Below are positions 38,257 to 60,400 of a stretch of 64,000 nucleotides of DNA, piece after piece. Source of the DNA: Inhella inkyongensis (GTDB lineage: Bacteria; Pseudomonadota; Gammaproteobacteria; Burkholderiales; Burkholderiaceae_C); the NCBI RefSeq assembly GCF_005952805.1, contig NZ_CP040709.1, positions 2,542,001 through 2,606,000 of the forward strand. The letters run 5' to 3'. The number at the start of each line of letters is the position of its first letter. Positions within the stretch are counted from its first letter, which is position 1. Both the position numbers and the translations under genes were made by a program. The notes under the pieces were generated by a model. The model saw only the letters and a program-made list of their open reading frames with translations. It searched no databases and was not told the origin of the DNA.

Positions 38257-41200
38257 ATGGCCCAGCCCCTGCCTGCATCGACTGCCCGCCCCCACTGGAC
38301 CCCCAAAACCCCAGCCGCCTGGCTGGCGCTGAGCGCCGCCTTGGCCCTGAGTTACTGGGCCGCCGGACTGGTTGGGCTGGCCGCCGCTGTCGGGCCGGGC
38401 GGCACCACCGCCATCTGGCCGGCCACCGGCTGGGCCTTGGGCGCCCTGCTGCTGTGGGGCTGGCGGGCCCTGCCCGGCCTGGTTTTGGGCAGCCTGATCA
38501 CGGACTCTCTGAGCAACCCGGGCCAAATGGCAATGGCGGTGCAGCTGAGTGCCGCCTCGATCCTGCAATGGTGCGTCATACGGGCGGTGCTGGCCGACTG
38601 GTGGCCCCGCATGCAGGCCTCGGGCGGGCGCTTTGCGCTGCGCTATGTGCTGGTCGTCTGCCTGGGATGCCTGGTGGCAACCACCGTGGGCAATGCCGTG
38701 CTGCTCTCGTTCGGCAAGCTCAGCAGCAGCGACTGGGCCTACGCCTGGCTGACCTGGTGGGTGGGGGACAGCGCCGGCATGTTGCTGATCACACCGCTGA
38801 TGTTGATGGCTCTGCACCCCGGGGTGCGCGCGCACTGCGTGCTGAACCAAGCCTACCCGGTGCTGGCCATCGGCGTGGGCCTGAGCCTGTCGGGCAGCTT
38901 TCTGGTGGGCCATGTGGAGCGCGACGCGCGCCTGCGCGCCCAAGCCTCCGACCTGCGCTCACTGGCTCAGGCGGTGGAAAACCAGATGGCCCTGGGCCTG
39001 TCCGATCTGCTGCGTCTGGGAGCGCTGCATTACCGAATTCAACTCAGCGAGACCGAATTCGCCCAGAGTGCCCGCGCCATTCGCACCGAACACAGCTGGC
39101 TCAGCAGCCTGGCCTATCTGGCGCGCGTCACCCCCGAACAGCGCGCTGCACTGGAGGAGAAGCTCGGTCAAAACCTGTCCAGCGTGCAGCCCGACGGCAG
39201 CCTGCACAACGCGCCCAGCCAATCCAGCTACTGGGTGCCGCTGCGCCTTGACCCCTTGGGCGGACAGGAAGCCCGGGTGGGGGTGGACGAAGGCAGCGAC
39301 CCGCTACGCCGCCCGGCCATTGAAGCGGCCCTGCGCACCGGCCGCCCAGCGCTAACCCCGGTGCTGAGCAATCTGCACTACGCCCAGGACGAGCCGCTGA
39401 TCGTGCTGGCCTATGCGCCGGTGTTCGAGGCGCCGGACGCCAAGTCGGCCGCCGAGCCCACCGGCCTGGTCAGTGCCTCCTTGCAACTGCGCGATCTGCT
39501 GCAAACCGCGCTCAACCAGTTTGACCGCTGGCAGCAACCCCTGCTGCTGCTGAGCGACGACAGCCAACCCGCCGGCCTGCTGTATGACGGCCACACGCTG
39601 CAAGACCTGCCCGCCAGCGCAGCCCATACGGCCCTGCAGACCTGGCTGGGGCAGGCCAACCTGACCCAGACCATCGCCTTCGGCAGCCACCGCTGGACCC
39701 TGCGCACGCCAGCGCAGTCGGCGGACCTGCGGCCCAGCGCCGTCCAGGCCATCTCTCTGGCCATCGGCCTGGCCTTCACAGCGCTGCTGACCGCCTTCCT
39801 GATCGCCCGCTCGCGCCGCGATGAAGCGCTGACACGCTGGCGCGAAGAACTGGAGCTGCAGGTTCAGCAACGCACCCAGGAGCTAGCCGGCACCAATCAA
39901 GAGTTGCGCCACGAAGTGCTGGAGCGCCAACGCATGGCCGATCAGCTGCGCGAGTCCGGCGCCGAATTGGGCCGCCAACAGGCGCAATTGCGCGCCCTGC
40001 TCGACCACATCCCCGATCCCGTGTGGATGAAGGATCTGCAGGGCCAATACATCTTGGTCAACCCCGCCCTGGAACGCTTTTTCAATCAAGCCAGCGGCAG
40101 CCTGCTGGGGCGTCGCAGCGCCGACATCCTGCCGCCCGATCAGGCGGTGCGCGACCGCGAGTTGGATGCCAGCGCCCTCTTGGTACCAGGCCCCATCGAG
40201 ACCGAAAACGAGGCCGTCGATAGCGCAGGCAAGCGCTGCGTGCACACCATCACCCGCGCGGCGGTGCGCAATGCCGAGGGCGAGCGCATCGGCGTGCTGG
40301 GCGTGGCGCGCGACATCACCAAACGGCTGGAGCGCGAGCAGGTGTTGCAGCGATTCCGCTGGCTGGCCGACAGTGCCGACCAAGGCTTCCTGATTGCCGA
40401 CCTGGACCACACCGTGGTCTATCTCAATGACACCGCCAAACGCTGGCTGGCTGACACCGACTGGGACGAGGACGGAGCGCCACGCCAGCTGCCGCAGTAC
40501 TGGAGCGCGGCCACCTTGGCGCAATGGCAGGCCGAAGTGCTACCGCAGCTGCGCGAGCGCGGCAATTGGGGCGGCGAGCTGGCCCTCCAAGGCCTGCCCG
40601 GCGCGCAGCCCCCGGCCCTGCTCTCACACTTCTTCCTGATGCGCGACGAGCAGGGGCAGGCCCGCTATGTGGCCCAGCTGATGACCGACATCAGCGAGCG
40701 CCTGCGCCTGGAAAAGGAACTCAACGAGGCACGGCTGCGCGCCGAGGGCGCCAACCGCGCCAAATCTGCCTTCCTGGCCAATATGAGCCACGAGATCCGC
40801 ACCCCGCTCAATGCCGTACTTGGCTACGCCCAGCTGCTGCGCGAGGAGACCCATCTGCCCGAGGGCTCGCGCCAACGCGTGCAAAGCATCTACAGCGCCG
40901 GCTCGCGCCTGCTGCGCCTGATCAATGATGTGCTGGACCTCTCCAAGATCGAGGCCGGCGCGCTGCAACTGCATGCCGAGCGCATCGATCTGCGGCGCGA
41001 GATCGAGGATTCGGTGCAGTTGCTGCAGGAGCGCGCCCGCAGCGCCGAGCTGGATCTGAGCACCGAGATCGACCTGCCCGACACCCTGCCGGTGCTGCTG
41101 GACCGCGGCAAATTCGGCCAGGTGCTGGTCAATCTCTTGGGCAATGCCATCAAGTTCACTCCAGCCGGTGGGCAAGTGAGGCTGCAAGCCAGTCTGGTGG

Positions 41201-42153
41201 ACGGCGACCAGCTGGATTTGCGCATCCAGGACAACGGACCGGGCATCGCCGCCGCCGAGCTGAGCAAACTCTTTGTGCCCTTTGCGCAGGGCGACTCCGG
41301 GCTGAAGCGCGGTGGCACCGGCTTGGGCTTGAGTCTGTCGCGCAGCCTGTTGCGCGCCATGGGGGGCGAGCTGCGCCTGAGCAGCGAAGCCGGTCAGGGC
41401 ACTTGCGCCTGGATCGAATTGCCGCTGCAACGCGTTCAGGCGCCCGACACCCCGAAGCGCATGCGGCTCAAGGCCAGCGAATTGCATCTGGCGCCCGACA
41501 GCCCCTGCTGCGTGCTGGTGGTGGAAGACGACCCCGACAGCCGCGAACTGCTGGTGGCTCTGCTGCAGGGCCTGGGCTGTCAAGTCTTAGCGGCCGAACA
41601 CGGGGCCCAGGCGCTGGAGCGCTGTGCGCAGCAGAAGCCCGACCTCATCCTTTCGGACATGCGCATGCCCGTCATGGATGGGGTGGAACTGCGCCGCCGC
41701 ATTGCGGCCGACGAGCACTTGAGCGACATCCCGATGGTCGCGGTCACGGCCTCCAGCCTGATCCATGAGCGCGAGGCCTTCCTGGACATGGGCTTTGCGG
41801 ACTTCATCGCCAAGCCCTATGACTTTGACCAGATCCTGCTGATGCTGCGCGCCCACGCCGGTGCCCAGCTGGTGCCGCGCGCCGAAGTACTGGCCAGCAC
41901 CCAGCCAGCCCCCATGGCCCCCAGCGCACCGGTCGAATCGGTAAGCCCGGCGGCATCCGCGGGTCCGTTGGACTGGGCCCAGGCCTTGAGCTGGGCCCAG
42001 GCTGGCCAGGCTGTGCCGCTGCGCGCCTGGGCAGCCGAGTTGCCACCGGACGAAACCGCATTGCGCGAGGCCATGCAGGCCGCGCTGGCTCGCTACGATC
42101 TGCAGGCCGTGGAAGCCCTGCTACAACCCCGCGTGCAGACCCAGGGAGAGTGA
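38257..42153 (+). CDS. Hybrid sensor histidine kinase (MASE1-CHASE-PAS-PAS-HisKA-HATPase-REC)
   Basis: This 1298-residue inner-membrane kinase begins with a multi-helix MASE1 region (about 20-210, IWPATGWALGALLLWGWR). A periplasmic CHASE-like domain (about 215-480) follows, then another helix, a coiled coil and two PAS domains (about 570-690 and 700-820). The HisKA box is ANMSHEIRTPLNA (His845), the ATPase has NLLGNAIKFTP and GTGLGLSLSRS, and the receiver has the phospho-Asp1134 in LILSDMRMPVMDG. The last 70 residues after a Pro/Ala linker are helical and may be a degenerate phosphotransfer module. The stop directly abuts the start of the response regulator gene. Confidence 0.93.
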   Translation: MAQPLPASTARPHWTPKTPAAWLALSAALALSYWAAGLVGLAAAVGPGGTTAIWPATGWALGALLLWGWRALPGLVLGSLITDSLSNPGQMAMAVQLSAASILQWCVIRAVLADWWPRMQASGGRFALRYVLVVCLGCLVATTVGNAVLLSFGKLSSSDWAYAWLTWWVGDSAGMLLITPLMLMALHPGVRAHCVLNQAYPVLAIGVGLSLSGSFLVGHVERDARLRAQASDLRSLAQAVENQMALGLSDLLRLGALHYRIQLSETEFAQSARAIRTEHSWLSSLAYLARVTPEQRAALEEKLGQNLSSVQPDGSLHNAPSQSSYWVPLRLDPLGGQEARVGVDEGSDPLRRPAIEAALRTGRPALTPVLSNLHYAQDEPLIVLAYAPVFEAPDAKSAAEPTGLVSASLQLRDLLQTALNQFDRWQQPLLLLSDDSQPAGLLYDGHTLQDLPASAAHTALQTWLGQANLTQTIAFGSHRWTLRTPAQSADLRPSAVQAISLAIGLAFTALLTAFLIARSRRDEALTRWREELELQVQQRTQELAGTNQELRHEVLERQRMADQLRESGAELGRQQAQLRALLDHIPDPVWMKDLQGQYILVNPALERFFNQASGSLLGRRSADILPPDQAVRDRELDASALLVPGPIETENEAVDSAGKRCVHTITRAAVRNAEGERIGVLGVARDITKRLEREQVLQRFRWLADSADQGFLIADLDHTVVYLNDTAKRWLADTDWDEDGAPRQLPQYWSAATLAQWQAEVLPQLRERGNWGGELALQGLPGAQPPALLSHFFLMRDEQGQARYVAQLMTDISERLRLEKELNEARLRAEGANRAKSAFLANMSHEIRTPLNAVLGYAQLLREETHLPEGSRQRVQSIYSAGSRLLRLINDVLDLSKIEAGALQLHAERIDLRREIEDSVQLLQERARSAELDLSTEIDLPDTLPVLLDRGKFGQVLVNLLGNAIKFTPAGGQVRLQASLVDGDQLDLRIQDNGPGIAAAELSKLFVPFAQGDSGLKRGGTGLGLSLSRSLLRAMGGELRLSSEAGQGTCAWIELPLQRVQAPDTPKRMRLKASELHLAPDSPCCVLVVEDDPDSRELLVALLQGLGCQVLAAEHGAQALERCAQQKPDLILSDMRMPVMDGVELRRRIAADEHLSDIPMVAVTASSLIHEREAFLDMGFADFIAKPYDFDQILLMLRAHAGAQLVPRAEVLASTQPAPMAPSAPVESVSPAASAGPLDWAQALSWAQAGQAVPLRAWAAELPPDETALREAMQAALARYDLQAVEALLQPRVQTQGE

Positions 42154-43962
42154 ATGAACAAGGCCAAGCTGCTCATCGTCGACGACACGCCCGAAAACAT
42201 CGACCTGCTGGTCTCCATCTTGGCCGGCGCCGAGCTGGACATCCTGGCGGCCAATAGCGGCGAACGGGCGCTGGAGCTGGTGGCCCGCACCCTGCCAGAC
42301 CTGATCTTGCTGGACGTGATGATGCCCGGCATCGACGGCTTTGAGACCTGCCGGCGCCTGCGCGCCGATGCCCGCAGCAAGGACATCCCGGTGATCTTCG
42401 TCACCGCCCGCGCCGAGGACGTCGGGCAGGGCTTTGCCGCCGGTGGCGCCGACTACATCGCCAAGCCGGTGCGCGCCGACGAGGTGCGCTCGCGCGTCAA
42501 CCATCACCTGGAGAAGCGCCGCCTGGTGCACCAGCTGATGGAGCTCAACGGCGTGCTGGAGCAGCGCGTGCGCGAACGCACCCAGGAGCTGGTGCAGGCC
42601 AACCGCAAGCTGCGCGAAGAGATCAACGAGCGGCGCTTCATGCAGGACCGCCTCTCCTATCTGGCCACGCACGACTTCGTGACCCGGCTCTACAACCGCG
42701 ACGCGCTGGAGAGCCATGTGCAGGGCCTGCTGGCGCGCGCCGACCGCGGCGAGGACAGTGCCTGCGTGGCCATGGTCGAACTGACCCGCTTCGCCATCGT
42801 CAACGACGCCTGCGGCTACATCGCCGGCGACGAATTGCTGCGCCAGGTGGCCGATCTGCTGGCCGCACTGGCCGCACCCGAAGACTTCATCGCGCGCTTA
42901 GGGGGCGACCGCTTCGCCATCCTCAGCGCACGCCCGGTGGAACCGGTGATGTCGCTGGCGCAGCGCATCAAGCAGGCCTTCGAGAGCTTTGGTTTTGTGT
43001 GGGATGGTCGCACCTACCACGTCGACGCCCGCGTCGCGGTGGTGCCGATTGGCACCGAGTACTACTCCTTCGAGCAGGTGATGGTGAAGGCCGACGAGGC
43101 CAGCTACCTGGCGCGCCGCGAAGGGGGCCCCGGTGTGCGCCTGCACCGTGCCTCGGCCCGCGACGCCGATCCGCGCGAAGCCGTCAACTGGGCCTACCGG
43201 CTTCTGGACGCGCTCAAGCAGAGTCACTTCCGGGTCTATTTCCAACGCATCGTGCCCTTGGCCGAACCCAACCCGGGTGGCCTGCGCTTTGAGACCCTGA
43301 TCCGCCTGTGGGACCCGGAGTCACGCCGCATCGTCGCGCCAGGCGCCTTCATCGGCCCGGCCGAGCGCTACCAGCTGATCGATCAGCTGGATCGCTGGAT
43401 GGTGCGCGAGGTGCTTTCACGCCTCTCGACCCTGACCGCCCTGCTGCCCCAGGTTGAACTGGTGACGATCAATCTATCGGCCTACTCGCTGCGCGACACC
43501 AGCTTGGCCGAGCGCATCCTCAACCTGCTGCGCGATCTTCATTTCCCCGCCAACAAGCTCTGCTTCGAGATCACCGAAACCGAGGCCATCGTCAACCTGG
43601 ATGCGGCGCTCAGTTTCATGCAGGCGCTCAAAGAACAAGGCGTGCGCTTCTCGCTGGACGACTTCGGCACCGGCTTCGCCAGCTTTGCCTACCTCAAGCG
43701 CCTGCCCTTCGACACCCTGAAGATCGACGGCGCCTTCGTGCGCGACATGGACCACGACGAGGCGAACGCCACCATGGTGCGCTCCATGGTGCAAATGGCC
43801 CAAGCCCTGGGCCTGCCGGTGGTGGCCGAGTTCGTTGAGAACGGTGCGGTGGCCAAATTGCTCAGTGAACTGGGCGTTCAGTTCGCCCAGGGCTATCACT
43901 TCCACCAGCCCGAAGCCCTCAGCGAAGAAGCGCTTCAGGCCGCCCTGCTCACTCTCAAATGA
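42154..43962 (+). CDS. Response regulator with REC, degenerate GGDEF and EAL domains
   Basis: The 602-residue protein has an N-terminal receiver (phospho-Asp54 in LILLDVMMPGIDG, Lys in YIAKPVRADE), a coiled coil (about 125-165), a GGDEF domain (165-320) and an EAL domain (340-600). The GGDEF site reads RLGGDRFA, so Glu is replaced by Arg and cyclase activity is unlikely. The EAL site is FETLIRLW with intact EITETEA, DDFGTGFASF, LKIDGAFVR and VAEFVEN, consistent with an active cyclic di-GMP phosphodiesterase. It is encoded directly after the hybrid kinase. The exopolysaccharide genes begin, convergent, at its 3' end, where the two ends overlap by eight bases. Confidence 0.93.
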   Translation: MNKAKLLIVDDTPENIDLLVSILAGAELDILAANSGERALELVARTLPDLILLDVMMPGIDGFETCRRLRADARSKDIPVIFVTARAEDVGQGFAAGGADYIAKPVRADEVRSRVNHHLEKRRLVHQLMELNGVLEQRVRERTQELVQANRKLREEINERRFMQDRLSYLATHDFVTRLYNRDALESHVQGLLARADRGEDSACVAMVELTRFAIVNDACGYIAGDELLRQVADLLAALAAPEDFIARLGGDRFAILSARPVEPVMSLAQRIKQAFESFGFVWDGRTYHVDARVAVVPIGTEYYSFEQVMVKADEASYLARREGGPGVRLHRASARDADPREAVNWAYRLLDALKQSHFRVYFQRIVPLAEPNPGGLRFETLIRLWDPESRRIVAPGAFIGPAERYQLIDQLDRWMVREVLSRLSTLTALLPQVELVTINLSAYSLRDTSLAERILNLLRDLHFPANKLCFEITETEAIVNLDAALSFMQALKEQGVRFSLDDFGTGFASFAYLKRLPFDTLKIDGAFVRDMDHDEANATMVRSMVQMAQALGLPVVAEFVENGAVAKLLSELGVQFAQGYHFHQPEALSEEALQAALLTLK

Positions 43963-45184
43963 GTACCTCGGTCACCTCCGGGTGACCGAGGAAGCGCGCC
44001 GGACTGGCGCTGGCGCCATAGGCGCCGCTCTGGAAGATCACCACCAGGTCACCAATCTCAGCCGCCGGCAGGGCCATTTTGTCGGCCAGCAAATCCAGCG
44101 GGGTGCACAAGGGGCCCACCGCCGAGACGGTCTCGGTCGCCCCACCCTGGCGGTTGCCGATGGTGGCCGGATAGTTCTTGCGCAACACCTGGCCGAAGTT
44201 GCCGCTGGCGCTCAGGTGGTGATTCAAGCCACCGTCGCAGACCAGATAGGTGTGGCCGCGCGAGACCTTTTTGTCAACCACCCGCGTCACATACACACCC
44301 GCCTCACCCACCAGGTAGCGACCCAGCTCGATCACCAACTCGGCCTGAGGCAGCTCGCGCGCAGCGCGCTCGCTCAACTCGGCCAAGTTGGCCGAGATCG
44401 GGGTCAAGTCCAGGCGCTGTTCGCCCGGGAAGTAGGGAATACCGAAACCACCGCCCAGGTTCAGGAAGCGGATGGGCGTGGGGCAGGCTTCGGCCAGGCG
44501 CAAGGCCAGGGCATAGCTCTTCTGCTGCGCCTCACAGATCGAATCAGGCTTGAGGTTTTGCGAGCCGGCGAACAGATGGAAGCCTTCGAACTGCAGGCCG
44601 CGCTCGCGCATCTCGGCCAGCACGGCCGGCACGCACTCGACGTCCACCCCGAATTGCTTGGGGCCACCGCCCATCTTCATGCCCGAGCCCTTGAGCTCGA
44701 AGTCCGGATTGACGCGCAGTGCCACCCGGGCCGGCAGGCCCAGCTGCTGGCTGGCGCGTTCCAGCACCGCGAGCTCGCGGGCCGACTCCACATTCACCAG
44801 CACCCCCGCCGCCACGGATTGCAGCAACTCCGGGTCGCGCTTACCGGGTCCGGCAAAGCTGATCTCGTGCGGATCGGCGCCGACATCCAGAGCGACTTTG
44901 AGCTCACCCGCGCTGGCCACGTCGATGCCGTCCACCAGGCGCGCCATGTGCGCGACCACGGCCGGCATCGGGTTGGCCTTCATCGCGTAGTGCAGCTTCA
45001 GACCCTTGGGCAGCGCGGCGCGCAGGGCGGCCACGCGGGCGTCCAGCAGGCTGCGGTCGTAGGCATAAAAGGGCGTGCTGCCGACCCGGGCGGCCACGCG
45101 GCTCAGGAGCTGACCGTTGATCAGCAGTTCGTGGCCCTGGACCTGGAATTGGTCCATGGGGACGTGAATGGGGGGCGCGCTCAT
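43955..45184 (-). CDS. PLP-dependent decarboxylase, exosortase A system-associated type
   Basis: This 409-residue protein is a fold-type III PLP enzyme related to diaminopimelate/ornithine decarboxylases. The PLP lysine lies in LHYAMKANPMP, with the phosphate-binding HLFAGSQN and LNLGGGFGIPYF loops and the catalytic-face region GPLCTPLD, where DAP decarboxylases have GxxCES/T. The neighbouring ligase, carrier protein and hydrolases match the group found with exosortase A loci (TIGR03099-type, from memory). The substrate is not known. The ATG overlaps the stop of the ligase gene (ATGA), so both are cotranscribed leftward. Confidence 0.9.
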   Translation of the reverse strand: MSAPPIHVPMDQFQVQGHELLINGQLLSRVAARVGSTPFYAYDRSLLDARVAALRAALPKGLKLHYAMKANPMPAVVAHMARLVDGIDVASAGELKVALDVGADPHEISFAGPGKRDPELLQSVAAGVLVNVESARELAVLERASQQLGLPARVALRVNPDFELKGSGMKMGGGPKQFGVDVECVPAVLAEMRERGLQFEGFHLFAGSQNLKPDSICEAQQKSYALALRLAEACPTPIRFLNLGGGFGIPYFPGEQRLDLTPISANLAELSERAARELPQAELVIELGRYLVGEAGVYVTRVVDKKVSRGHTYLVCDGGLNHHLSASGNFGQVLRKNYPATIGNRQGGATETVSAVGPLCTPLDLLADKMALPAAEIGDLVVIFQSGAYGASASPARFLGHPEVTEVLI

Positions 45185-46779
45185 AGGTTTTCCAAAGTCT
45201 GCGACAGGGCCTTGCGGTCGATCTTGCCGTTGGGGTTGCGCGGCAGTGGACCCGCACGCTCCTCCACGGTGGCCGGGATCATGTAGGCCGGCATGCGGGC
45301 GCGGCACTGTGCCAGCAGGGCCTCGCGATCCAGGCTGTCAGCCCCGGCCGGCGGCGTCGCGATCACATAGATGGCCTGGCCCAGCTGCGCATGCTCCACC
45401 CCGAAGGCCGCGCATTCGCCCACCAGCTGGGTGGCGTACAGCACCTCCTCGACCTCGGTGGGGCTGACGCGGTAGCCGCTGGTCTTGATCATCTCGTCGC
45501 GGCGACCGATGAAGTACAGGAAGCCCTCGGCATCGCGGCGCACGGTGTCGCCGCTGAACACCGCGTACTCGGGCAACTGCAGGCCGCTCAGGCGCGCTTG
45601 CGTCGAGCCGGGCAGCAATTTGTAGCGTTCGGCCGTCTTTTCAGGATCACCCCAATAGCCCAGACCCACCAGTGCACCGCGGTGCACCAGCTCACCGGGC
45701 TCATCGGGGGCACATTCGCTGCCATCCTCGCGCAGAACCAGGATCTCGGCGTTCGGGATCGCCTTGCCAATGCTGTCCGGCCGGCGGTCCACCTCTTCCG
45801 GCGGCAAATAGGTGGAGCGGAAGGCCTCGGTCAGGCCGTACATCAGGAAAGGCTGGGCGGCCGGCACGCGGGCGCGCAGTTGGTCCAGGGTGTCCCGCGG
45901 CATGCGCCCGCCGGTGTTGGCGAAGTAGCGCAGGTGCTCGTTGATGCTAGCCGGCCACTCCATTTGTGTGAGCTGGATGTAGAGCGGCGGCACGGCGGTC
46001 AGGCCGGTGATGCGCTCCTTTCCCAGCGCACGCAGCACATCGCGCGGCATCAGGTAATTCAACAGCACCACCCGGGCGCCGACGTGGAAGGCCGTGGTGA
46101 GCTGGCTGAAACCCGCGTCAAAGGACAGCGGCAGCGCGGCCAGCAGGCTGTCGCCGCTGTGATTGCCCAGATAAGAAGAGACTGACTTGGCGCCCGCCAC
46201 CATATTGCGATGGCTCAGCACCACGCCCTTGGGCTTTCCTGTCGAGCCACTGGTGTAGAGGATGGCCAGCACATCGGTGTCGATCACCCGATGACCAGTG
46301 CGTGCCGGGGCCCGCAGAGCTTCGTTCCAATCGAGGATGGCCCAGCGCTGACTGCGCTGCTCGCTCGCCCCCTCGGTCAGGAATACCGCCTGCAGCTCGG
46401 GGCAGCCCTGCAACACCGGCTCCAGCTGGGCATAGCGGTCGGCCGAGGTCACCAGATAGCGCACCGAACAGTCCTGGGCGATAAAACCCACCTGCTCGGG
46501 CTTGAGCAAGGGATTCATCGGCACAAAGACCCCGCCCGCTGCCGGGGCGCCAAAGCTGGCCACCACGGTCTCGAAACGTTTTTCCAGATAAATGCCGACG
46601 CGCTCACCGCGCTGCAAGCCCTGCGCCAACAGCCCGTGGGCAAAGCCCTGCACCTGGGTCCAAAGCTGGGCGTAGCTGAGATGCTGGCCGCGATAGCTCA
46701 AGGCCAGGCTGTCGGGCGCGCGCGCAGCACTGCGCTCGATCAGCTCGTGCAGCAGGGTGGATTCGAGAGGGTGATTCAT
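45181..46779 (-). CDS. Acyl-CoA ligase (AMP-forming), exosortase A system-associated type
   Basis: The 532-residue adenylate-forming enzyme has the phosphate loop LYTSGSTGKPKG (about 170), the aromatic motif MYGLTEAFRSTY (about 320), the hinge region YFIGRRDEMIKTSGYRVSP and the catalytic lysine near the C-terminus in NPNGKIDRKAL. It probably activates a carboxylic acid, or possibly an amino acid, and loads it on the carrier protein encoded divergently 180 bases away. The NRPS-like C-terminal NGKIDR fits transfer to a carrier. The start MNHPLEST is chosen over an upstream in-frame codon. Confidence 0.92.
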   Translation of the reverse strand: MNHPLESTLLHELIERSAARAPDSLALSYRGQHLSYAQLWTQVQGFAHGLLAQGLQRGERVGIYLEKRFETVVASFGAPAAGGVFVPMNPLLKPEQVGFIAQDCSVRYLVTSADRYAQLEPVLQGCPELQAVFLTEGASEQRSQRWAILDWNEALRAPARTGHRVIDTDVLAILYTSGSTGKPKGVVLSHRNMVAGAKSVSSYLGNHSGDSLLAALPLSFDAGFSQLTTAFHVGARVVLLNYLMPRDVLRALGKERITGLTAVPPLYIQLTQMEWPASINEHLRYFANTGGRMPRDTLDQLRARVPAAQPFLMYGLTEAFRSTYLPPEEVDRRPDSIGKAIPNAEILVLREDGSECAPDEPGELVHRGALVGLGYWGDPEKTAERYKLLPGSTQARLSGLQLPEYAVFSGDTVRRDAEGFLYFIGRRDEMIKTSGYRVSPTEVEEVLYATQLVGECAAFGVEHAQLGQAIYVIATPPAGADSLDREALLAQCRARMPAYMIPATVEERAGPLPRNPNGKIDRKALSQTLENL

Positions 46780-46960
46780 AGGGAGATCGCGGGCGATGCA
46801 AGCCCGCGCCAAACCATTGGCAAAGGTGGCCGGCAATGTAGCGCAGCCGCCCCCCGCAAGACGGGGGTTCCCCCGGGTCTGTGGGGGCCCCGGCGGTTAA
46901 AGTCTCGCGCCTTCCCCGCCGCCTTGGCGGGCTTTGTTTTTCATCTCCCGAATACCACCC
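46780..46960. promoter_or_regulatory. Divergent promoter region between ligase and carrier protein genes
   Basis: The 181-base gap should hold promoters for both transcription units. It contains several self-complementary blocks: GCGGGC...GCAAGCCCGC at about 46789-46807, CGGGGGTTCCCCCG at about 46862-46876, and the terminator-like hairpin next to the carrier gene. No convincing sigma70 or sigma54 box was found by eye. Confidence 0.5.
46915..46941 (+). terminator. Terminator-like hairpin just upstream of the carrier protein gene
   Basis: CCCGCC and GGCGGG pair around a GCCTT loop and are followed by CTTTGTTTTT, the form of an intrinsic terminator. It ends only 19 bases before the carrier protein ATG. 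Because the genes to the left run the other way, it would act on the leader of the polysaccharide operon itself or on antisense transcripts. Confidence 0.6.
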
Positions 46961-47215
46961 ATGTCCACCGACCTTCAGGCCCAAGTGCTGCGCCTTCTTG
47001 ATGATGTTCTGAGCCTGGAAGGCCGCGCCCAGTCCTTCACCCGCGCCACCGCCCTGCTGGGCGCCGTGCCGGAACTGGACTCGATGGCCGTGGTTTCGCT
47101 GATGACCGCCATGGAAGAGCAGCTGGGCATCAGCATCGACGACGACGAAGTCGACGGCGATGTGTTCGCCACCGTGGGTTCTCTGACCGACTTCCTGGCG
47201 GCCAAACTCGCCTGA
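46961..47215 (+). CDS. Acyl carrier (phosphopantetheine-binding) protein, exosortase A-associated type
   Basis: The 84-residue protein has the four-helix carrier protein pattern with the phosphopantetheine serine in PELDSMAVVSL (about Ser43) and an acidic helix III (ISIDDDEVDGDVF). It should be modified by a phosphopantetheinyl transferase and loaded by the divergent ligase. It is the first gene of the long rightward operon. The ATG at MSTDLQAQV gives the normal carrier length; an ATG nine codons upstream would overlap the hairpin. Confidence 0.9.
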   Translation: MSTDLQAQVLRLLDDVLSLEGRAQSFTRATALLGAVPELDSMAVVSLMTAMEEQLGISIDDDEVDGDVFATVGSLTDFLAAKLA

Positions 47216-47226
47216 GCGGCTGTGTC

Positions 47227-48012
47227 GTGAGGCAGCAGCCCCAATTTCTCGAATGGGCGGGCGCGCGGCGCTTCGCCCTGCTGCACCGCCCGGCATCGAT
47301 GCCTCGTGCGGTGCTGCTGCTGCTGCCGCCCTTTGCCGAAGAGCTGAACAAAACCCGCCGCGCCCTCGCACAGGCCTGCATGACCCTGGCCGAAGCCGGC
47401 TTTGCAGTGCTGCAGCTGGATCCCCTGGGCTGCGGCGACAGCGACGGCGATTTTGGTGATGCCGGCTGGTCCGACTGGCTGAATGATGCCCAGCAGGGTC
47501 TGCTCAAGCTGGCGGCCGAGTTTCCCGATCGCCCTCAGGTGCTGTGGGGCCTGCGCGCGGGCTGCTTGCTGGGCAGCGCAGTGGCTGAAGACCGGCCCCA
47601 GCTCTGGTGGCAGCCCGCCACGCAGGGCAAGGCCGTGCTGCAGCAGTTCCTGCGTCTGCGTCTGGCGGCTGAAATGGACGCCGCCGAGCGCAGCACCATG
47701 GCGGATCTGAAAGCCCAGCTGGCGCAAGGTCAGCCCGTGGAAGTGGCCGGCTATTTGCTCAGCCCCGCCCTGGCTGCCGGACTGGAAGCCGCCGAGCTGC
47801 AGGCCGGCAATGGGCCGACGCTGTGGCTGGAGGCCAGCAGCCAGGCCGAACCCGCCCTGCTACCCGGTTCGCAGTCCTGGCTGGCGCGCCACCCCGGCGT
47901 GCAAGCCCAGGCCCTGCAAGACCCTGCCCCCTGGGCCGCCACCGAGCTGGAAGACAGCCCGGCCCTGACGGCCGCCAGCCTGTCTTGGCTGCGAGCGCAG
48001 TTTCCGGCATGA
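47227..48012 (+). CDS. Alpha/beta hydrolase-like protein (exosortase A-associated hydrolase 2 type), altered nucleophile
   Basis: The 261-residue protein has an alpha/beta-hydrolase start (RAVLLLLPPFAEELNKTRRA), the LDPLGCGDSDGDF loop and a would-be nucleophile elbow reading WGLRAGCLLG, in which Arg occupies the usual Ser/Cys position. It may therefore be non-catalytic or act differently. The exosortase-A association rests on gene neighbourhood and the PPFAEELNK motif. The GTG start is 12 bases after the carrier gene. Its 3' end overlaps the next hydrolase gene. Confidence 0.85.
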   Translation: MRQQPQFLEWAGARRFALLHRPASMPRAVLLLLPPFAEELNKTRRALAQACMTLAEAGFAVLQLDPLGCGDSDGDFGDAGWSDWLNDAQQGLLKLAAEFPDRPQVLWGLRAGCLLGSAVAEDRPQLWWQPATQGKAVLQQFLRLRLAAEMDAAERSTMADLKAQLAQGQPVEVAGYLLSPALAAGLEAAELQAGNGPTLWLEASSQAEPALLPGSQSWLARHPGVQAQALQDPAPWAATELEDSPALTAASLSWLRAQFPA

Positions 48013-48893
48013 GTGCGGACCGCATCATTTCGCTGGGCGACGGGTCAACCCAGCGTTTCGGCCTGCTGAGCCCGGGCACCGCGTCCGTGGGCGTGGTGGT
48101 GCTGGTGGGCGGCCCGCAGTACCGCGCGGGCTCGCACCGTCATTTTGTGCAGCTGGCCCGCTTTCTGGCCCAAGCAGGCACACCCTGCCTGCGCTTTGAT
48201 CACGCCGGCATCGGTGACAGCTCAGGCAACAACCCGGGCAACAACGCGGGCGCCCTGCCGGACTTCTGCGCGCTGGACGCCGAGGTGGATCTCGCCATCA
48301 GCGCTCTGATGCAGGCCCAGCCCCAACTGCAAGGTGTGGTGCTGTGGGGGCTGTGCGATGGCGCCAGCGCCGCCCTGCTCTACATGGCACGCCGCAATGA
48401 CCCGCGCGTGCGCGGCCTGTGCCTGCTCAACCCCTGGGTGCGCTCCGCACAGGGCGAGGCCCGTGCGCGGGTGCAGCACTACTACTGGGAGCGTCTGCGC
48501 AACCCCGAGTTCTGGCGCAAGCTGCTGGGCGGCGGCGTCGGCCTCGGGGCCCTGAAGGGCTGGTGGGCCGCACGCCAATTGGCCCGCCAGGCCGCGCCCG
48601 CAACTCCATCGGGCGCCACGCAGTGTTATCAGATGCAGATGGCCCAGGGCTACCAGGCCTTTGCCGGCCCGCGCTTGGTCCAGCTCAGCGGACGTGACCA
48701 CACCGCACGCGAGTTCGAGGCCGCCGGCGAGCTGTTCCCGCTCTGGCGCAACTGGCAATCCCATGCCGGGCTGACGCTGCAGCACTACCCCGAGGCCGAC
48801 CACACCTTCTCGCGCCGTGCGCTGCAACAGCAGTCCTTTGAGGATCTGCTCAGCTGGCTGCACAGCCACTGGCCGCAGGAGGCCCGCGCATGA
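48009..48893 (+). CDS. Alpha/beta hydrolase-like protein (exosortase A-associated hydrolase 1 type), Cys nucleophile
   Basis: The 294-residue protein opens its hydrolase fold with VVLVGGPQYRAGSHRHFVQL and FDHAGIGDSSG. The nucleophile elbow is WGLCDGASAALL, with cysteine in place of serine. The acid and histidine would be near GRDHTAREF and ADHTFSRR at the C-terminus. A cysteine nucleophile suggests thioester chemistry with a carrier-bound substrate, but this is inference. Overlapping ends couple it to both neighbours. Confidence 0.87.
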   Translation: MSADRIISLGDGSTQRFGLLSPGTASVGVVVLVGGPQYRAGSHRHFVQLARFLAQAGTPCLRFDHAGIGDSSGNNPGNNAGALPDFCALDAEVDLAISALMQAQPQLQGVVLWGLCDGASAALLYMARRNDPRVRGLCLLNPWVRSAQGEARARVQHYYWERLRNPEFWRKLLGGGVGLGALKGWWAARQLARQAAPATPSGATQCYQMQMAQGYQAFAGPRLVQLSGRDHTAREFEAAGELFPLWRNWQSHAGLTLQHYPEADHTFSRRALQQQSFEDLLSWLHSHWPQEARA

Positions 48894-49585
48894 TCGGCCT
48901 CTGGAAGGGCTTGCGCGCGCAGTTTGATCGCGCCACCACCCTGCTCTACATCACGCACCGACTGCTGGAGAAATGCAGCGGTGGGCGCGCGGGCCTGGTG
49001 CCCTATCTGCTGTATGCCCAACCTCTGGGTCAGCTCGGAAATGCTGCGCTGGCCTCCGTCAAGGACGACCCGCAGACCCAGATCGCGCTGTGGCCGGCCG
49101 GCGATGCCCGTGTGGCGGCCTTCCCGCGCCCGCCTGAGGTCATGGCGGAACGCTGGGCCAGTGGCTCGCGCTGCTACGGCGCGGTGGTCAAGGGTGAGGT
49201 GGCCGGCTGCATCTGGATCGCGCTGAACGAGCACCTGGAGGACGAGGTGCGTTGCCGCTACCAACTGCCCCAGGACGGCGTGTGGGACTACGACGTGCTG
49301 GTGCTGCCGCGCTGGCGCCTGGGCCGCACCCTGGCCCGCTTATGGAAGGCCGTGGACGCCGACCTGGCCGCCGAGCAGCGCCGCTGGAGTTTCAGCCGCA
49401 TCTCGCGGTTCAACCGCGCTTCCATCGGCGCCCACGAGCGCCTGGGCGCACGCGTGGTGGGAAGCGCCACCTTTCTGAAGCTCGGCTCCTGGCAGCTGAG
49501 CTGGCAGGGCGCTGCGCTGCTACCGCATTGGGACGGCCGCTCGGGCTGCCCGACCCTGACCCTGCACGCTCCGAGCACCCCATGA
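48890..49585 (+). CDS. GNAT-like acyltransferase in polysaccharide locus
   Basis: This 231-residue protein ends with a GNAT-like half. A strand YDVLVLPRWRLGRTLARLW replaces the usual Q/RxxGxG/A loop, and SRISRFNRASIGAHERLGARVVGS resembles motif B. The N-terminal 90 residues are poorly matched. It could transfer an acyl group from the carrier protein or acetyl-CoA onto an amine or sugar. Both ends overlap its neighbours by four bases (ATGA), so expression is tied to hydrolase 1 and the glycosyltransferase. Confidence 0.75.
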   Translation: MIGLWKGLRAQFDRATTLLYITHRLLEKCSGGRAGLVPYLLYAQPLGQLGNAALASVKDDPQTQIALWPAGDARVAAFPRPPEVMAERWASGSRCYGAVVKGEVAGCIWIALNEHLEDEVRCRYQLPQDGVWDYDVLVLPRWRLGRTLARLWKAVDADLAAEQRRWSFSRISRFNRASIGAHERLGARVVGSATFLKLGSWQLSWQGAALLPHWDGRSGCPTLTLHAPSTP

Positions 49586-50802
49586 AGCGCGTCCTCCTCA
49601 TCGCCTACCACTTCCCGCCGCTGGCGGGCTCCAGTGGCATCCAGCGCACCCTGCGCCTGGCCCAACAGCTTCCGCAGTTTGGCTGGCAACCCACGGTGCT
49701 GACCTGTCAGTCCCAGGCCTACGAGCGCACCAGCCCGGATCTGGCCGCCGAGTTGCCGGCCGATCTGCATGTCGAGCGCGCGTTTGCGCTGGACACCGCA
49801 CGCCACCTGGCCATCGCCGGCCGCTACTGGGGGCGGCTGGCCCGCCCCGACCGCTGGATGAGCTGGCGTTGGGATGCGGTGCGCCGCGGCCTGCGCCTGA
49901 TTCGTGAGCAGCGTATTGACGCCATCTGGTCCACCTACCCCATTGCTACCGCGCACACCATTGGTGCCGAACTGGCCGCGCGCAGCGGTCTGCCCTGGGT
50001 GGCGGACTTCCGCGATCCGATGGCCCAGGATGGCTACCCCGCCGACCCGGCCACGCATGCGGCCTATTGCCGCATCGAGGAGCAGGTGTTTGGCCGCGCC
50101 CGGCTGGCCACGTTCACGACCCCCAGCGCGCTGGCCGACTACCGCGCCCGCTTTCCCAAGACATCAACGCGCCTGGAGTTGCTGGAAAACGGCTATGACG
50201 AGGCCAGCTTTGGCGCCGCCCCCCAGCCCGAGCCGCTCAACCCCGGCCGCTTGACGCTGCTGCACAGCGGCATCGTCTACCCCTCCGAGCGCGACCCCAC
50301 CCAACTGTTCGAGGCGCTGGCCGCCCTCAAGGCCCAGGGCCTGGGCGAGCGGCTGCGCCTGCGCTTTCGCGCGGCCGTGCACGACGAGTTGCTGCGCCAA
50401 CTGGGCGCCCAGCATCAGGTGACGGAGATGGTCGAGATCCTGCCGGCAGTGGGCTACCGCCAGGCCCTGGCCGAGATGCAGCAGGCCGACGGCCTGCTGG
50501 TCATGCAGGCGCGCAATTGCAATGCGCAGATCCCGGCCAAGATCTACGAGTACCTGCGCGCCGGCCCCGCCGTGCTGGTGCTGGCCGACCGCGCCGGTGA
50601 CACCGCCCAGGTGCTGCGCGCCGCCGGGCTGCAGCAGCAGGCCCAGCTCGATGAGGCCAGCGACATCCAGGGTCTCTTGACCCGCTTCGCCCAAGACCCC
50701 ACCGCGCCGCAGTGGCGCCCTCAACCCGACGCCATCCAGCAGGCCTCGCGCCTGGCGCGCAGCGGCCAGCTGGCCAGCTGGCTGAACCAAATCACCTCCT
50801 GA
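49582..50802 (+). CDS. Glycosyltransferase family 4 protein
   Basis: The 406-residue GT-B enzyme has the N-terminal GT4 acceptor-domain loop FPPLAGSSGIQRTLRLA, a central WVADFRDPMAQDGYP segment, and the C-terminal nucleotide-sugar domain ending KIYEYLRAGPAVLVLAD, in which the usual E-x7-E pair is partly conserved. It is probably cytoplasmic and adds a sugar to the lipid-linked repeat unit. The ATG overlaps the preceding stop. The donor sugar cannot be assigned. Confidence 0.9.
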   Translation: MKRVLLIAYHFPPLAGSSGIQRTLRLAQQLPQFGWQPTVLTCQSQAYERTSPDLAAELPADLHVERAFALDTARHLAIAGRYWGRLARPDRWMSWRWDAVRRGLRLIREQRIDAIWSTYPIATAHTIGAELAARSGLPWVADFRDPMAQDGYPADPATHAAYCRIEEQVFGRARLATFTTPSALADYRARFPKTSTRLELLENGYDEASFGAAPQPEPLNPGRLTLLHSGIVYPSERDPTQLFEALAALKAQGLGERLRLRFRAAVHDELLRQLGAQHQVTEMVEILPAVGYRQALAEMQQADGLLVMQARNCNAQIPAKIYEYLRAGPAVLVLADRAGDTAQVLRAAGLQQQAQLDEASDIQGLLTRFAQDPTAPQWRPQPDAIQQASRLARSGQLASWLNQITS

Positions 50803-50813
50803 AAGACCCCATC

Positions 50814-52142
50814 ATGAACATCAGCATCTTTGGCCTTGGCTATGTCGGCGCGGTTTCCCTGGCCTGCCTGGCCCGCGATGGCCACCAGGTCATCGGCGTG
50901 GATATCGACGCCAGCAAGCTTGAACTGATCGCCGCCGGCAAGACCCCGGTGGTCGAAGAAGGCATGGTCGATCTGATGCAGCAAGTGGCCGCCAGCGGCC
51001 GTGTCAAGGTCACCACCGATGCCGAGGCCGCCGTGGCCGATTCGGAAATCTCGCTGGTCTGCGTGGGCACGCCCTCGGCCGCCAATGGCAGCCAGGACCA
51101 GACCGCCGTGCTGCGCCTGGCTGAGGCCATGGGCCGTGCGATTGGGGCCAAGTGCGAAAAGAAGGCCGCGCCCCATGTGGTGGTGTTCCGCTCCACCCTG
51201 GTGCCGGGCACCGTCGAGGACGTGCTGCGTCCCATCATCGAGAAGGCCTCGGGCAAGAAGGACGGCGTGGACTTTTTCTTGTGCTTCCAGCCCGAGTTCC
51301 TGCGCGAAGGCTCGTCGATCCGTGACTACGACAAGCCGCCCTTCACGGTGGTGGGCGCCAACCACGAAGAGCCGCTGAATCGCCTGCGCCAGCTCTTCGG
51401 CCACCTGCCCTGCCAGTTCCTGCCCACCTCGGTGCGTGCCGCCGAGATGATGAAGTACTGCTGCAACAACTTCCACGCGCTCAAGATCACCTTCGCCAAC
51501 GAGACCGCGCGCCTGTGCGCGGCCCTGGGCGTGGACCCCTTCGAGGTGATGAATCTGGTCTGCCAGGACACCCAGCTCAACATCTCCAAGGCCTATCTGA
51601 AGCCGGGCTTCGCCTTCGGCGGCTCCTGCCTGCCCAAGGACCTGCGCGCCACCAGCTATTTGGCCAAGACCCGCGACGTCGAGCTGCCCATGCTGTCGGC
51701 CATCCTGGCCTCCAACGAAGCGCATCTGAACCTGGCCTATGAGGCGGTGATGGCCTCTGGCCGCCGCAAGATCGGCTTCGTCGGCCTGTCCTTCAAGACC
51801 GGCACCGACGACCTGCGCGAGTCGCCCCTGGTGACCCTGGCCGAACAGCTGATCGGCAAGGGCATGCAGCTCTCGGTCTATGACCCCGAGGTGCATCTGG
51901 CCCATCTGCTGGGTTCGAACCGCCGCTATGTCGAGACCCATCTGCCCCATATCGGTCAGCTGCTCAAGCCCGAGCTGGAACAGGTGATTGCCGAGTCCGA
52001 CTACCTGGTGGTGGGCCTGGCCGATGCGCGCGTCTATGCCGCGCTGGCCCAGCATGCCCGCGCCGACCAGCTGGTGCTGGACCTGGTGAACCTGCCCAAC
52101 CGCGCCGACATCAAGGCCGAGGTCAAGGGCCTGAGCTGGTGA
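50814..52142 (+). CDS. Nucleotide sugar dehydrogenase (UDP-glucose/GDP-mannose 6-dehydrogenase family, AlgD-like)
   Basis: The 442-residue enzyme has an N-terminal NAD Rossmann motif (FGLGYVGAVSLACLA), the central helix and substrate region with EFLREGSSIRDY and MMKYCCNNFHALK, and the catalytic cysteine in AFGGSCLPKDLRA (about 278). The C-terminal domain begins KIGFVGLSFKTGTDDLRESP. These features match GDP-mannose 6-dehydrogenase AlgD more closely than short UDP-glucose types, so it probably makes a uronic acid donor. It provides acidic sugar for the polymer. Confidence 0.93.
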   Translation: MNISIFGLGYVGAVSLACLARDGHQVIGVDIDASKLELIAAGKTPVVEEGMVDLMQQVAASGRVKVTTDAEAAVADSEISLVCVGTPSAANGSQDQTAVLRLAEAMGRAIGAKCEKKAAPHVVVFRSTLVPGTVEDVLRPIIEKASGKKDGVDFFLCFQPEFLREGSSIRDYDKPPFTVVGANHEEPLNRLRQLFGHLPCQFLPTSVRAAEMMKYCCNNFHALKITFANETARLCAALGVDPFEVMNLVCQDTQLNISKAYLKPGFAFGGSCLPKDLRATSYLAKTRDVELPMLSAILASNEAHLNLAYEAVMASGRRKIGFVGLSFKTGTDDLRESPLVTLAEQLIGKGMQLSVYDPEVHLAHLLGSNRRYVETHLPHIGQLLKPELEQVIAESDYLVVGLADARVYAALAQHARADQLVLDLVNLPNRADIKAEVKGLSW

Positions 52143-53245
52143 TCACGGCCAGCGCACCTGCCGACCTGCGCCTCTGCGTGGTGGGCCCGCTGCCGCCCCC
52201 CTCGGGCGGCATGGCCAACCAGTGCGAGCAGCTGGTGCGCCTGCTGCGCGCCGAGGGGCTGCAGGTTGAGCTGGTACGCAACAACCCGCCCTACCGCCCG
52301 GCTTGGGTCGGCCGGCTGCCGGTGCTGCGGGCCTTCGCGCGCCTGCTGCCCTACCTGTGGGCGCTTTGGCGAGCCGCAGGGCGCAATCAGGTCATGCATG
52401 TACTGGCCAATTCCGGTTGGGCCTGGCATTTGTTTGCCGCGCCCGCGCTGTGGATCGCGCGGCAGCGCGGCTGTGCGGTGGTGCTGAACTACCGGGGCGG
52501 GCTAGCCGATGAGTTTTTTGCCAATGCACCGCGCCATGTGCTGAAGAGCCTGGCCCGGGTGCAGCTGCGCGTCACGCCGTCCAGCTTTCTGGAGCGCGTG
52601 TTCGCCAAGCACGGCCTGCACGCCGAGGTCATCCCCAACATCATCGACCTGACGCGCTTCAGGCCGCGCCCCGAGACCGATCCAGGCGCGGCGCCGCATC
52701 TGGTGGTGACGCGCAATCTGGAGCCCATCTACGGCATCCCCACCGCGCTGCAGGCCTTTGCCCTGCTGCGCCAGCGTTGGCCGCAGGCGCGTCTGACGGT
52801 GGCGGGCTCCGGCCCCGAGCTGGAACGGCTGCAACTGCAATGCCGAGCGCTGGGCATTCAGGATGCCGTGCACTTCAGCGGCCGCATCGCCAATGCCGAC
52901 ATCCCGGCGCTCTACGCCAGCGCCGATTGCGTGCTCAACCCCACCACCGCCGACAACATGCCCATCTCCATCCTGGAGGCCCTGGCCTCGGGTGTGCCGG
53001 TGGTGAGCACCGATGCCGGCGGCATCCCTGACTTGGTGCGCCACGAACACAGCGCCCTGCTGGTGCCGGTGGGCGACGCCCAGGCCCTGGCCGACGCGGC
53101 CGCGCGCGTGCTCAGCGATGCACCGCTGCGCGCGCGCCTGCGCCAGACCGGTCTGCAGCAGGTCCAGGCCTATGCCTGGCCCGCCGTGTTTCGTCAGTGG
53201 CTGGCCGCCTACCAGCGCGCCGCCGGCCTACAAGGATCTGCCTGA
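52139..53245 (+). CDS. Glycosyltransferase family 4 protein
   Basis: The 368-residue GT-B enzyme shows the N-terminal glycine loop GPLPPPSGGMANQ, the donor-domain start TRNLEPIYGIPTALQAF, and the E-x7-E region SILEALASGVPVVSTDAGGIPDLV. This is a classical retaining GT4 pattern. It starts with a GTG that overlaps the dehydrogenase stop, and its stop overlaps the next ATG in a TGATG arrangement with AAGGA upstream. It is likely the second sugar-adding enzyme of the repeat unit. Confidence 0.92.
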   Translation: MITASAPADLRLCVVGPLPPPSGGMANQCEQLVRLLRAEGLQVELVRNNPPYRPAWVGRLPVLRAFARLLPYLWALWRAAGRNQVMHVLANSGWAWHLFAAPALWIARQRGCAVVLNYRGGLADEFFANAPRHVLKSLARVQLRVTPSSFLERVFAKHGLHAEVIPNIIDLTRFRPRPETDPGAAPHLVVTRNLEPIYGIPTALQAFALLRQRWPQARLTVAGSGPELERLQLQCRALGIQDAVHFSGRIANADIPALYASADCVLNPTTADNMPISILEALASGVPVVSTDAGGIPDLVRHEHSALLVPVGDAQALADAAARVLSDAPLRARLRQTGLQQVQAYAWPAVFRQWLAAYQRAAGLQGSA

Positions 53246-59447: not shown

Positions 59448-60400
59448 TCGTTCCGCTCGCCCTCAACCTGCTGTCGGCGCGCTCGCGCCAGCGCCTCTCC
59501 ATCCTGATCTACCACCGCGTGCTGGCGCACAAGGACGATCTGCACACCGACCTGCCCAGTGTGGCCGAGTTCGAGCGCGACATGGGCTGGGTGGCCCGCT
59601 GGTTCAATGTGCTGCCGTTGGACGAAGCCGTGCGCCGTTGGCGCGCTGGCACCCTGCCAGCCCGGGCGGCGGCCATCACCTTTGACGACGGCTATGCCGA
59701 CAACCTCACCCAGGCCACCCCCATCCTGCGCCGGCTGGGCCTGAGCGCCACCTTCTTCATCGCCACCGACTACCTGGATGGGGGCCGCATGTGGAACGAC
59801 ACCATCGCCGAGGCCGTGCGCCGCTGTCCGACCGCCGAATTGGACCTGCGCGATCTTGACTTGGGAACGCATCCCCTGCCCGACATGGCTGCCCGCCGCG
59901 CCGCCGTGGCCCGCTTGCTACCGGCCGCCAAATACCTGCCGCAAGCGCGCCGCCAAGAAGTGGCCGACGCGATCGCCGCGCGCGTGGGCCAGCCCCTGCC
60001 CGACGATCTGATGATGACGCGCAGCCAACTCAAGGCCCTGCGCGATGCCGGCATGCAGATCGGCGCCCACACACTCAGCCACCCGATCCTGGCCAATCTG
60101 AGTGGGCCCCAAGCCGAGGCCGAGATTCGCGGCAGCAAGCAGGAACTTGAAGCCCTGCTGCAACAGCCGGTGACCCTGTTCGCCTATCCCAATGGTGTGC
60201 CCGGACGCGACTACCGGCGCGAGCACGCCGACATGGTCGAAGCCGCCGGCTTTGAAGCCGCCGTCACCACCGCCGCTGGTGCCACCCACCCCGGCAGCCT
60301 GGCTGCCCAGCTGCCGCGCTTCACGCCCTGGGACCAGACCGCCACCCGCTTTGGCCTGCGTCTGGCGCGCAATCTGCTCGGCCAAGAAGCCACGCATTGA
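59444..60400 (+). CDS. Polysaccharide deacetylase (NodB domain)
   Basis: The 318-residue protein carries a NodB homology domain. The catalytic base and metal aspartates are in ITFDDGYADN (about 80), the H-x3-H metal ligands in HTLSHPILA (about 205) and the FAYPNG motif follows. There is no clear signal peptide, so it may act in the cytoplasm or be held at the membrane by its N-terminal LALNLLSARSR segment. It would remove N- or O-acetyl groups from the polymer or its precursor. It overlaps the ligase-like gene by four bases. Confidence 0.92.
   Translation: MIVPLALNLLSARSRQRLSILIYHRVLAHKDDLHTDLPSVAEFERDMGWVARWFNVLPLDEAVRRWRAGTLPARAAAITFDDGYADNLTQATPILRRLGLSATFFIATDYLDGGRMWNDTIAEAVRRCPTAELDLRDLDLGTHPLPDMAARRAAVARLLPAAKYLPQARRQEVADAIAARVGQPLPDDLMMTRSQLKALRDAGMQIGAHTLSHPILANLSGPQAEAEIRGSKQELEALLQQPVTLFAYPNGVPGRDYRREHADMVEAAGFEAAVTTAAGATHPGSLAAQLPRFTPWDQTATRFGLRLARNLLGQEATH

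Follow-up and report, generated by a model that had tools for sequence, protein, structure and literature searches.

The 64-kb stretch of DNA analyzed here (the window), part of the 4.08-Mb single-contig genome of Inhella inkyongensis (Burkholderiales), carries a module of six neighboring genes inside a long exopolysaccharide (EPS) region. Two of these genes are on the reverse strand and encode a predicted pyridoxal phosphate (PLP)-dependent decarboxylase (positions 43955 to 45184; TIGR03099, 623 bits), which shares as much as 89% identity with proteins named Inhella, and a predicted stand-alone adenosine monophosphate (AMP)-forming ligase (45181 to 46779; TIGR03098). This pair runs the opposite way to an operon on the forward strand, the two being separated by a divergent gap of approximately 180 bases (46780 to 46960). 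The operon begins with a stand-alone carrier protein (46961 to 47215; PF00550; best PDB match, 2lki) with its phosphopantetheine serine predicted in an LDSMA motif, followed by hydrolase 2 (47227 to 48012; TIGR03101-like), the alpha/beta hydrolase here referred to as hydrolase 1 (48009 to 48893; TIGR03100), a GNAT-fold protein (48890 to 49585), and a glycosyltransferase (49582 to 50802; PF13439) that overlaps the GNAT gene by 4 bases; these five genes form one tight same-strand run. An earlier note on this DNA had placed the six module genes correctly to within their start codons (the ligase ATG, for instance, is at 46779, and the decarboxylase starts at 45184). Searches with the TIGR03098 to TIGR03101 profiles that it named confirmed that the ligase, decarboxylase, and hydrolase genes are members of these families, except that hydrolase 2, at 195 bits, falls just under the TIGR03101 cut-off.

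The decarboxylase had been described as a PLP enzyme of the diaminopimelate (DAP)/ornithine type; the enzyme class holds, and among solved structures the nearest is of another type. With the single sequence as the query, two BtrK entries were the best PDB matches (268 bits), followed by a DAP decarboxylase (161 bits), and a 20-row profile gave 324 bits for BtrK, 208 bits for the best DAP decarboxylase, and 202 bits for entry 6knh. A CTPLD loop (within GPLCTPLD) is present in all 81 rows of the TIGR03099-type family; this loop reads CTPED in BtrK and CE[ST]GD in 5/5 DAP decarboxylases (LysA) compared. In a phylogenetic tree, the five LysA/DAP decarboxylase rows separate with full support. By sequence, the enzyme is closer to BtrK, the butirosin decarboxylase of a glutamyl-carrier protein, than to DAP decarboxylases. 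An excerpt of PMC7857480 describes the conversion of glutamyl-BtrI to 4-aminobutyryl-BtrI by BtrK, and the sequence strongly indicates a carrier-bound substrate for the module enzyme as well.

The ligase points to the nature of this substrate. When its specificity region was compared with the PDB, the VinN entries 3wvn and 3wv4 were the best matches (90 bits; next match, 65 bits); we take 3wvn to be VinN, its PDB row reading "non-ribosomal peptide synthetase." Since the tandem-domain protein LgrA ranked first when the ligase alignment served as a profile query, a 181-residue piece was used for the VinN alignment. With an offset of 16, the PDB entry has precisely the expected residue types (Asp, Ser, and Arg) at the places of VinN Asp230, Ser299, and Arg331, and the ligase residues aligned with them are D220, T288, and R320 (the numbering starts at window position 46776 and is thus lower by one than a count that includes the ATG). 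Part of PMC7756342 gives Asp230 and Ser299/Arg331 as the VinN residues for the free alpha-amino and alpha-carboxyl groups. The three ligase residues are unchanged in 75/75 rows (the window and 74 loci, all close relatives), and among 17 pocket-region positions tallied over these rows, only one varies (position 321, S or A). Ten further ligases, 7 from decarboxylase genomes without exosortase A (XrtA) over its cut-off and 3 more distant, have the Asp in 10/10 and the Arg in 10/10, with Ser in nine and Thr in one at the third place. The ligase model also matched nine other adenylating proteins of the genome, among which the Asp is found in one and the Arg in none. The one with the Asp is the stand-alone adenylation-carrier-thioesterase protein at the window start (31 to 2811; PF00501, PF00550, and PF00975), the genomic open frame of which is longer, with 1,317 amino acids.

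Retention of the Asp, Thr, and Arg residues points to the side-chain carboxyl group as the one that is activated, which leaves the alpha-carboxyl group for the decarboxylase. The alignments strongly indicate that the ligase loads an Asp- or Glu-like acid in this manner. For the choice between Asp and Glu, we can only infer: beside the Asp, the pocket has Ala and Ser in place of the Phe and Tyr of the VinN row, which would make Glu or another longer acid possible, and the tendency of 4-aminobutyryl thioesters to form a lactam would favor Asp or a protecting group.

The distribution of the genes was followed in 304 genomes of the class, with a decarboxylase cut-off of 478 bits. The scores are split: 33 genomes lie above 478 bits, 4 lie between 265 and 478 bits (one of them with the gene in two pieces), and the rest have no match or score at most 264 bits, the range where LysA scores. 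Co-occurrence was determined for 59 genomes, namely, the 33 decarboxylase genomes and 26 controls (15 with XrtA and without the decarboxylase over its cut-off and 11 with neither). The carrier is present in 33/33 decarboxylase genomes and 0/26 controls, and the ligase is over its cut-off in 31/33 and 0/26, respectively. The ligase is lacking in G298, where an XrtA-like match lies just under the cut-off, and in G265, and in 2 of the 31 genomes with both (G284 and G224), it lies at a large distance from the decarboxylase or on a different contig. In a survey of loci, limited to the best 80 of 582 and including Thauera, Zoogloea, and Accumulibacter, ligase and decarboxylase genes adjoin each other in 66/75 loci having the ligase, and the phosphopantetheine motif of the carrier reads DSM in 67/67 rows. 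Judged from these sequence surveys, it is strongly indicated that ligase, carrier, and decarboxylase are an obligate trio. Of the accompanying genes, hydrolase 1 is found in 26/33 decarboxylase genomes and 0/26 controls, hydrolase 2 is found in 26/33 and 1/26 (the latter a weaker match of 123 bits), and the GNAT gene is found in 8/33 and 0/26.

The family names, whose association with exosortase A the earlier note had mentioned, suggest a closer tie to exosortase A than was found. XrtA is over its cut-off in 24/33 decarboxylase genomes and in 41/271 others (Fisher P = 1.6e-11); conversely, no decarboxylase reaches its cut-off in 41/65 XrtA genomes, a count of negatives that includes G081, where XrtA is present and the decarboxylase is split over two contigs. 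Since 9/33 module genomes have no XrtA over the cut-off, the module is not part of the exosortase; it is associated with XrtA and does not require it. The hydrolases are present in 24/24 module genomes with XrtA and in 2/9 without, and so form a second layer on the trio. The XrtA gene of this genome is located at G000:C1:2631955-2632731, past the window end. A second exosortase-like gene (G000:C1:1303460-1304239; 153 bits to XrtA, under the cut-off) was also noticed.

Taken together, we consider it probable, at roughly 0.6, that the trio is a module of the butirosin/vicenistatin type for carrier-tethered amino acid decarboxylation, the product of which is transferred to an amine, most likely that of an EPS amino sugar. 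The proposal of the earlier note that an amino acid is activated, tethered, and decarboxylated on the carrier is supported by the BtrK-type decarboxylase, the VinN-type ligase, and the strict co-occurrence of the trio. The ligase would adenylate an Asp- or Glu-like acid at its side-chain carboxyl group and load this acid onto the dedicated carrier, and the decarboxylase would take off the free alpha-carboxyl group to give a beta-alanyl or 4-aminobutyryl thioester. The omega-aminoacyl group would then be moved to an amine by a transferase, for which the candidates are the GNAT protein in this genome, a PF13480-type protein at other loci, and hydrolase 1; with an EPS amino sugar as the most likely acceptor, the polymer would gain a free, positively charged amine. 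Hydrolase 1 may edit or transfer through its Cys, with hydrolase 2 as a catalytically dead partner. The identity of the transferring protein, the acceptor, and the roles of the hydrolases are the parts of this scheme that we infer. The wider proposal, that floc- and biofilm-forming environmental proteobacteria use antibiotic-type chemistry on a carrier to decorate their EPS with beta-alanyl or 4-aminobutyryl groups, which places free cationic amines on the polymer, and that this pathway is what the "exosortase A-associated" ligase, decarboxylase, and hydrolase families constitute, is tentative, and we would place it slightly below even odds.

The later steps have several candidates. The Cys-elbow hydrolase of the earlier note is recognizable in hydrolase 1, in which C116, D230, and H265 are conserved over 50 rows (1.00, 0.98, and 0.98, respectively) and, in the structure model, come after the strands formed by residues 109 to 115, 222 to 227, and 255 to 260, consistent with a Cys-Asp-His set. 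Fold comparison places the protein among general esterases, thioesterases, and peptidases, making it a candidate thioesterase, acyltransferase, or deprotecting peptidase. In hydrolase 2, the Arg reported at the elbow replaces the nucleophile in 52/52 rows, and no late Asp or His column reaches 60%; this alpha/beta-hydrolase relative is probably a noncatalytic partner. The two hydrolase genes are neighbors in 47/49 loci, always with the carrier in the locus, which lies beside hydrolase 2 in 42. As for the GNAT protein, fold comparison places it among many GNATs, none of which singles out one substrate, and it is a candidate for the transfer from carrier to amine. The earlier note assigned the transfer to this protein. 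Its distribution does not establish it as the general transferase: the gene is present in 10/80 loci and 8/33 genomes, and a different GNAT-type protein (PF13480) is found instead in 29/80 loci, with only one locus having both types. The co-occurrence counts given above nevertheless make the GNAT protein a real, if optional, partner. The PF13480-type protein occurs together with hydrolase 1 in 25 loci, on the same strand in 22, and a DegT-type aminotransferase is near the module in 23/80 loci, in 22 of them alongside the PF13480-type protein (both names, PF13480 and DegT, were assigned from a single representative of the family). The position looks like a slot for exchangeable transferases.

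A setting beside sugar-polymer genes, as seen in the window, is frequent elsewhere: EPS-type families are found within 10 kb of the module in 59/80 loci, counted without a random-locus control. Past the window end, the rest of the XrtA cluster of this genome encodes FemAB (TIGR03019), a TIGR03006 deacetylase, a chain-length protein, a tyrosine kinase, and amidotransferases, as well as a WecE-type 4-amino-4,6-dideoxyhexose transaminase and a TviB-like dehydrogenase; from the family names, amino sugars that could serve as acceptors are likely made. The same cluster contains a protein with an ATP-grasp domain and the L-amino-acid-ligase domain LAL_C2 (L092:541-1767) and a protein with a weak PylC-like N terminus and a HAD hydrolase part (L092:2468-4105), which could represent a second aminoacylating step as in butirosin; hydrolase 1 might then take the protecting group off again. 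In eight loci (L034, L055, L075, L076, L077, L080, L087, and L088), Acyl_transf_3 and SASA esterase families, each named from one representative, recur together near the module. For Thauera MZ1T, part of PMC4784049 reports an EPS with N-acetylfucosamine and N-acetylglucosamine and possible nonsugar substituents, and N-acetyl-alanyl groups on deoxyamino sugars of a polysaccharide are known from an excerpt of PMC3210612. The available portion of a paper on Aquincola flocs (PMC9850573) contains nothing that we could find on the module.

Several observations weigh against this picture. Entry 6knh has a CTPKD loop, and as SbnH, which we take it to be (its PDB row reads "probable diaminopimelate decarboxylase"), it uses a small citryl conjugate; the loop may thus be a sign of conjugate substrates of any kind and not of carriers specifically. 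The tree does not resolve BtrK as the sister of TIGR03099, since the fork that leads to BtrK and the distant rows is open and their branches are long. The close relatedness of the 75 ligase rows inflates the apparent invariance of the pocket. Position 221, beside the key Asp, is Ala in 75/75 rows, Tyr in 10/10 further ligases, and Phe in the VinN row, and S224 stands where VinN has Tyr; with the pocket varying in this way, the ligases may differ in their substrates, and an acid resembling 3-methylaspartate is not required. Among the 23 identified of the 44 gene families that occur in at least 3 of the 80 loci, there is no regular second ligase for a protecting group of the kind used in butirosin and vicenistatin, and no transferase is conserved throughout the module loci. 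Lastly, the proportion of loci with EPS families has no random-locus baseline, and in 21/80 loci, some of them on short contigs, none of the six scored EPS families is found in the available sequence.

Alternative explanations were also weighed. The product of the same carrier chemistry might be built into a small molecule, lipid, or protein, the genes being merely sited in an EPS locus. The characterized relatives, as far as the excerpts of the papers go, serve butirosin, vicenistatin, and bolagladin, and the core does occur without XrtA over its cut-off; the frequency of nearby EPS-type families (again without a control), the stop/start overlap with the glycosyltransferase in the window, and the lack of polyketide or multidomain peptide synthetases among the 23 recurring families identified speak against such a product, which we regard as unlikely. 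That the ligase and decarboxylase are an ordinary acyl-CoA ligase and a LysA paralogue brought together by chance is strongly disfavored and has a very small probability. The generic matches on which this explanation would build are under their cut-offs (289 bits against 663 for the fatty acyl-CoA synthetase model and 248 bits against 298 for LysA), and it does not fit with the strict co-occurrence with a dedicated carrier, the adjacency of the two genes in most loci, the amino acid pocket of the ligase, or the non-LysA loop of the decarboxylase.

Two other explanations retain the carrier route to a polymer and differ in the transferring protein. FemAB of the XrtA cluster might transfer the carrier-bound group: it is present in 24/24 genomes with module and XrtA, and in G167, a genome without XrtA over the cut-off, it lies 0.6 kb from the carrier. 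It is, however, equally present in 15/15 XrtA controls without the module, absent from 7/9 module genomes without XrtA (present in 2/9), and found in 1/11 genomes with neither; as a dedicated transferase for the module, it was set aside because it tracks XrtA, and we hold this role to be improbable. About as improbable, or slightly more so, is a Dlt-like route in which the ligase (DltA role) and carrier (DltC) would feed an MBOAT protein (DltB) and an AlgX-like protein (DltD), placing aminoacyl groups onto the exported polymer. The window alone suggested it, with an MBOAT gene 8 kb from the module, the best match of which is DltB (NCBIfam, 181 bits; PDB, 115 bits), overlapping a gene for an AlgX/SGNH-like protein (24.7 bits, narrowly below the Pfam cut-off; 54608 to 57159, forward strand, for the pair). 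Moreover, an MBOAT gene is present at L104, a distant locus with ligase, carrier, and decarboxylase. Other loci did not bear the route out, an MBOAT gene being within 10 kb of the module in 3/80 and an AlgX-like protein in 0/80, and the ligase reaches 164 bits with the DltA model against a cut-off of 560. The MBOAT/AlgX-like pair is a probable O-acylation pair of the exopolysaccharide. L104 (8869-15362), in which a distant decarboxylase and a ligase with the same Asp/Thr/Arg positions and a weak carrier match lie beside a sulfotransferase and an MBOAT gene, is a related module in another context. The reading that we prefer remains decarboxylation on the carrier and transfer to an EPS amino sugar.

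The forward-strand genes that follow the module operon fit an EPS region. They encode a nucleotide-sugar dehydrogenase (50814 to 52142; TIGR03026), a GT4-like glycosyltransferase (52139 to 53245), a PaaK-like (PaaK/FlxY-like) AMP ligase directly before the MBOAT gene (53197 to 54597; such a ligase is present in 3/80 related loci), and, beyond the MBOAT/AlgX-like pair, a TIGR03097 putative O-glycosylation ligase with a polysaccharide deacetylase (58140 to 60400); a gene for a heparinase-like protein also lies downstream. On the other side, a hybrid histidine kinase and a response-regulator-type GGDEF/EAL-like protein, as read from the sequence, adjoin the decarboxylase (38257 to 43962). No sigma-70-like site was found in positions 43800 to 50900. 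The sigma-54 consensus with one mismatch matches once in the 64 kb, against 4.1 matches expected, inside the ligase gene and not in the divergent gap, and scans of the window with Rfam (gathering threshold) and for tRNAs returned nothing.

With this proposal, four families that had been named only by association gain a concrete chemistry, including which amino acid, which carboxyl group, and which carrier, and the module is separated from the exosortase A that the family names suggest it serves. Many environmental bacteria carry it. If the product ends on the polymer, this would explain a positive matrix charge in floc-forming Thauera, Zoogloea, and Accumulibacter, which is relevant to wastewater treatment, and an antibiotic side-chain pathway would be at work in a structural polysaccharide. 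Literature searches limited to CC0, CC BY, and CC BY-SA papers revealed no function for the TIGR03098 to TIGR03101 families. TIGR03100 is listed for Bcam1334 in a Burkholderia EPS cluster, and no other paper with one of these numbers was found in the openly licensed literature. The main text of the 2006 paper on the PEP-CTERM system does not contain the terms "decarboxylase," "ligase," "hydrolase," "acyl carrier," or "FemAB."

Among known systems, butirosin biosynthesis in Bacillus circulans (BtrI/BtrJ/BtrK) resembles the module in having a stand-alone carrier and an alanine-racemase-fold decarboxylase of a carrier-bound amino acid. The butirosin product ends on an aminoglycoside amine, and BtrJ is an ATP-grasp ligase, whereas the module ligase is AMP forming; no BtrH/BtrG-type protein was recognized in the module, although no search by name was made. 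VinN/VinL/VinO of vicenistatin and the FlvN-type aspartate route share the AMP ligase with Asp, Ser/Thr, and Arg, the stand-alone carrier, and a PLP decarboxylase acting on the thioester, but the Vin proteins feed a macrolactam polyketide, use a second adenylating enzyme, VinM, and differ in the pocket residues beside the key Asp. According to the part of its description available, the BolO/BolC/BolN set of bolagladin (Burkholderia gladioli) likewise combines a VinN-like ligase, a carrier, and a BtrK-like decarboxylase; it feeds a lipodepsipeptide synthetase instead of belonging to a sugar-polymer locus. D-Alanylation by DltA/DltC/DltB/DltD follows the same logic from AMP ligase via carrier to polymer, and an MBOAT gene is present in the window, but that system has no decarboxylase, the module ligase is not DltA, and MBOAT genes are seldom linked to the module elsewhere. 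The NCBIfam families TIGR03098 to TIGR03101, described as "exosortase A system-associated," include the module genes (TIGR03101 just under its cut-off); these descriptions name no pathway, and according to the profiles in this analysis, the families track the carrier module rather than exosortase A. The carrier-bound chemistry is itself known from butirosin (PMC7857480), vicenistatin (PMC11284099), and bolagladin (PMC7756342), as excerpts of these papers describe. We found no description in the openly licensed literature of antibiotic-type carrier decarboxylation joined to polysaccharide decoration, and what would be new here is this joining of two known things, carrier-tethered decarboxylation and an amino acid on a polysaccharide amino sugar.

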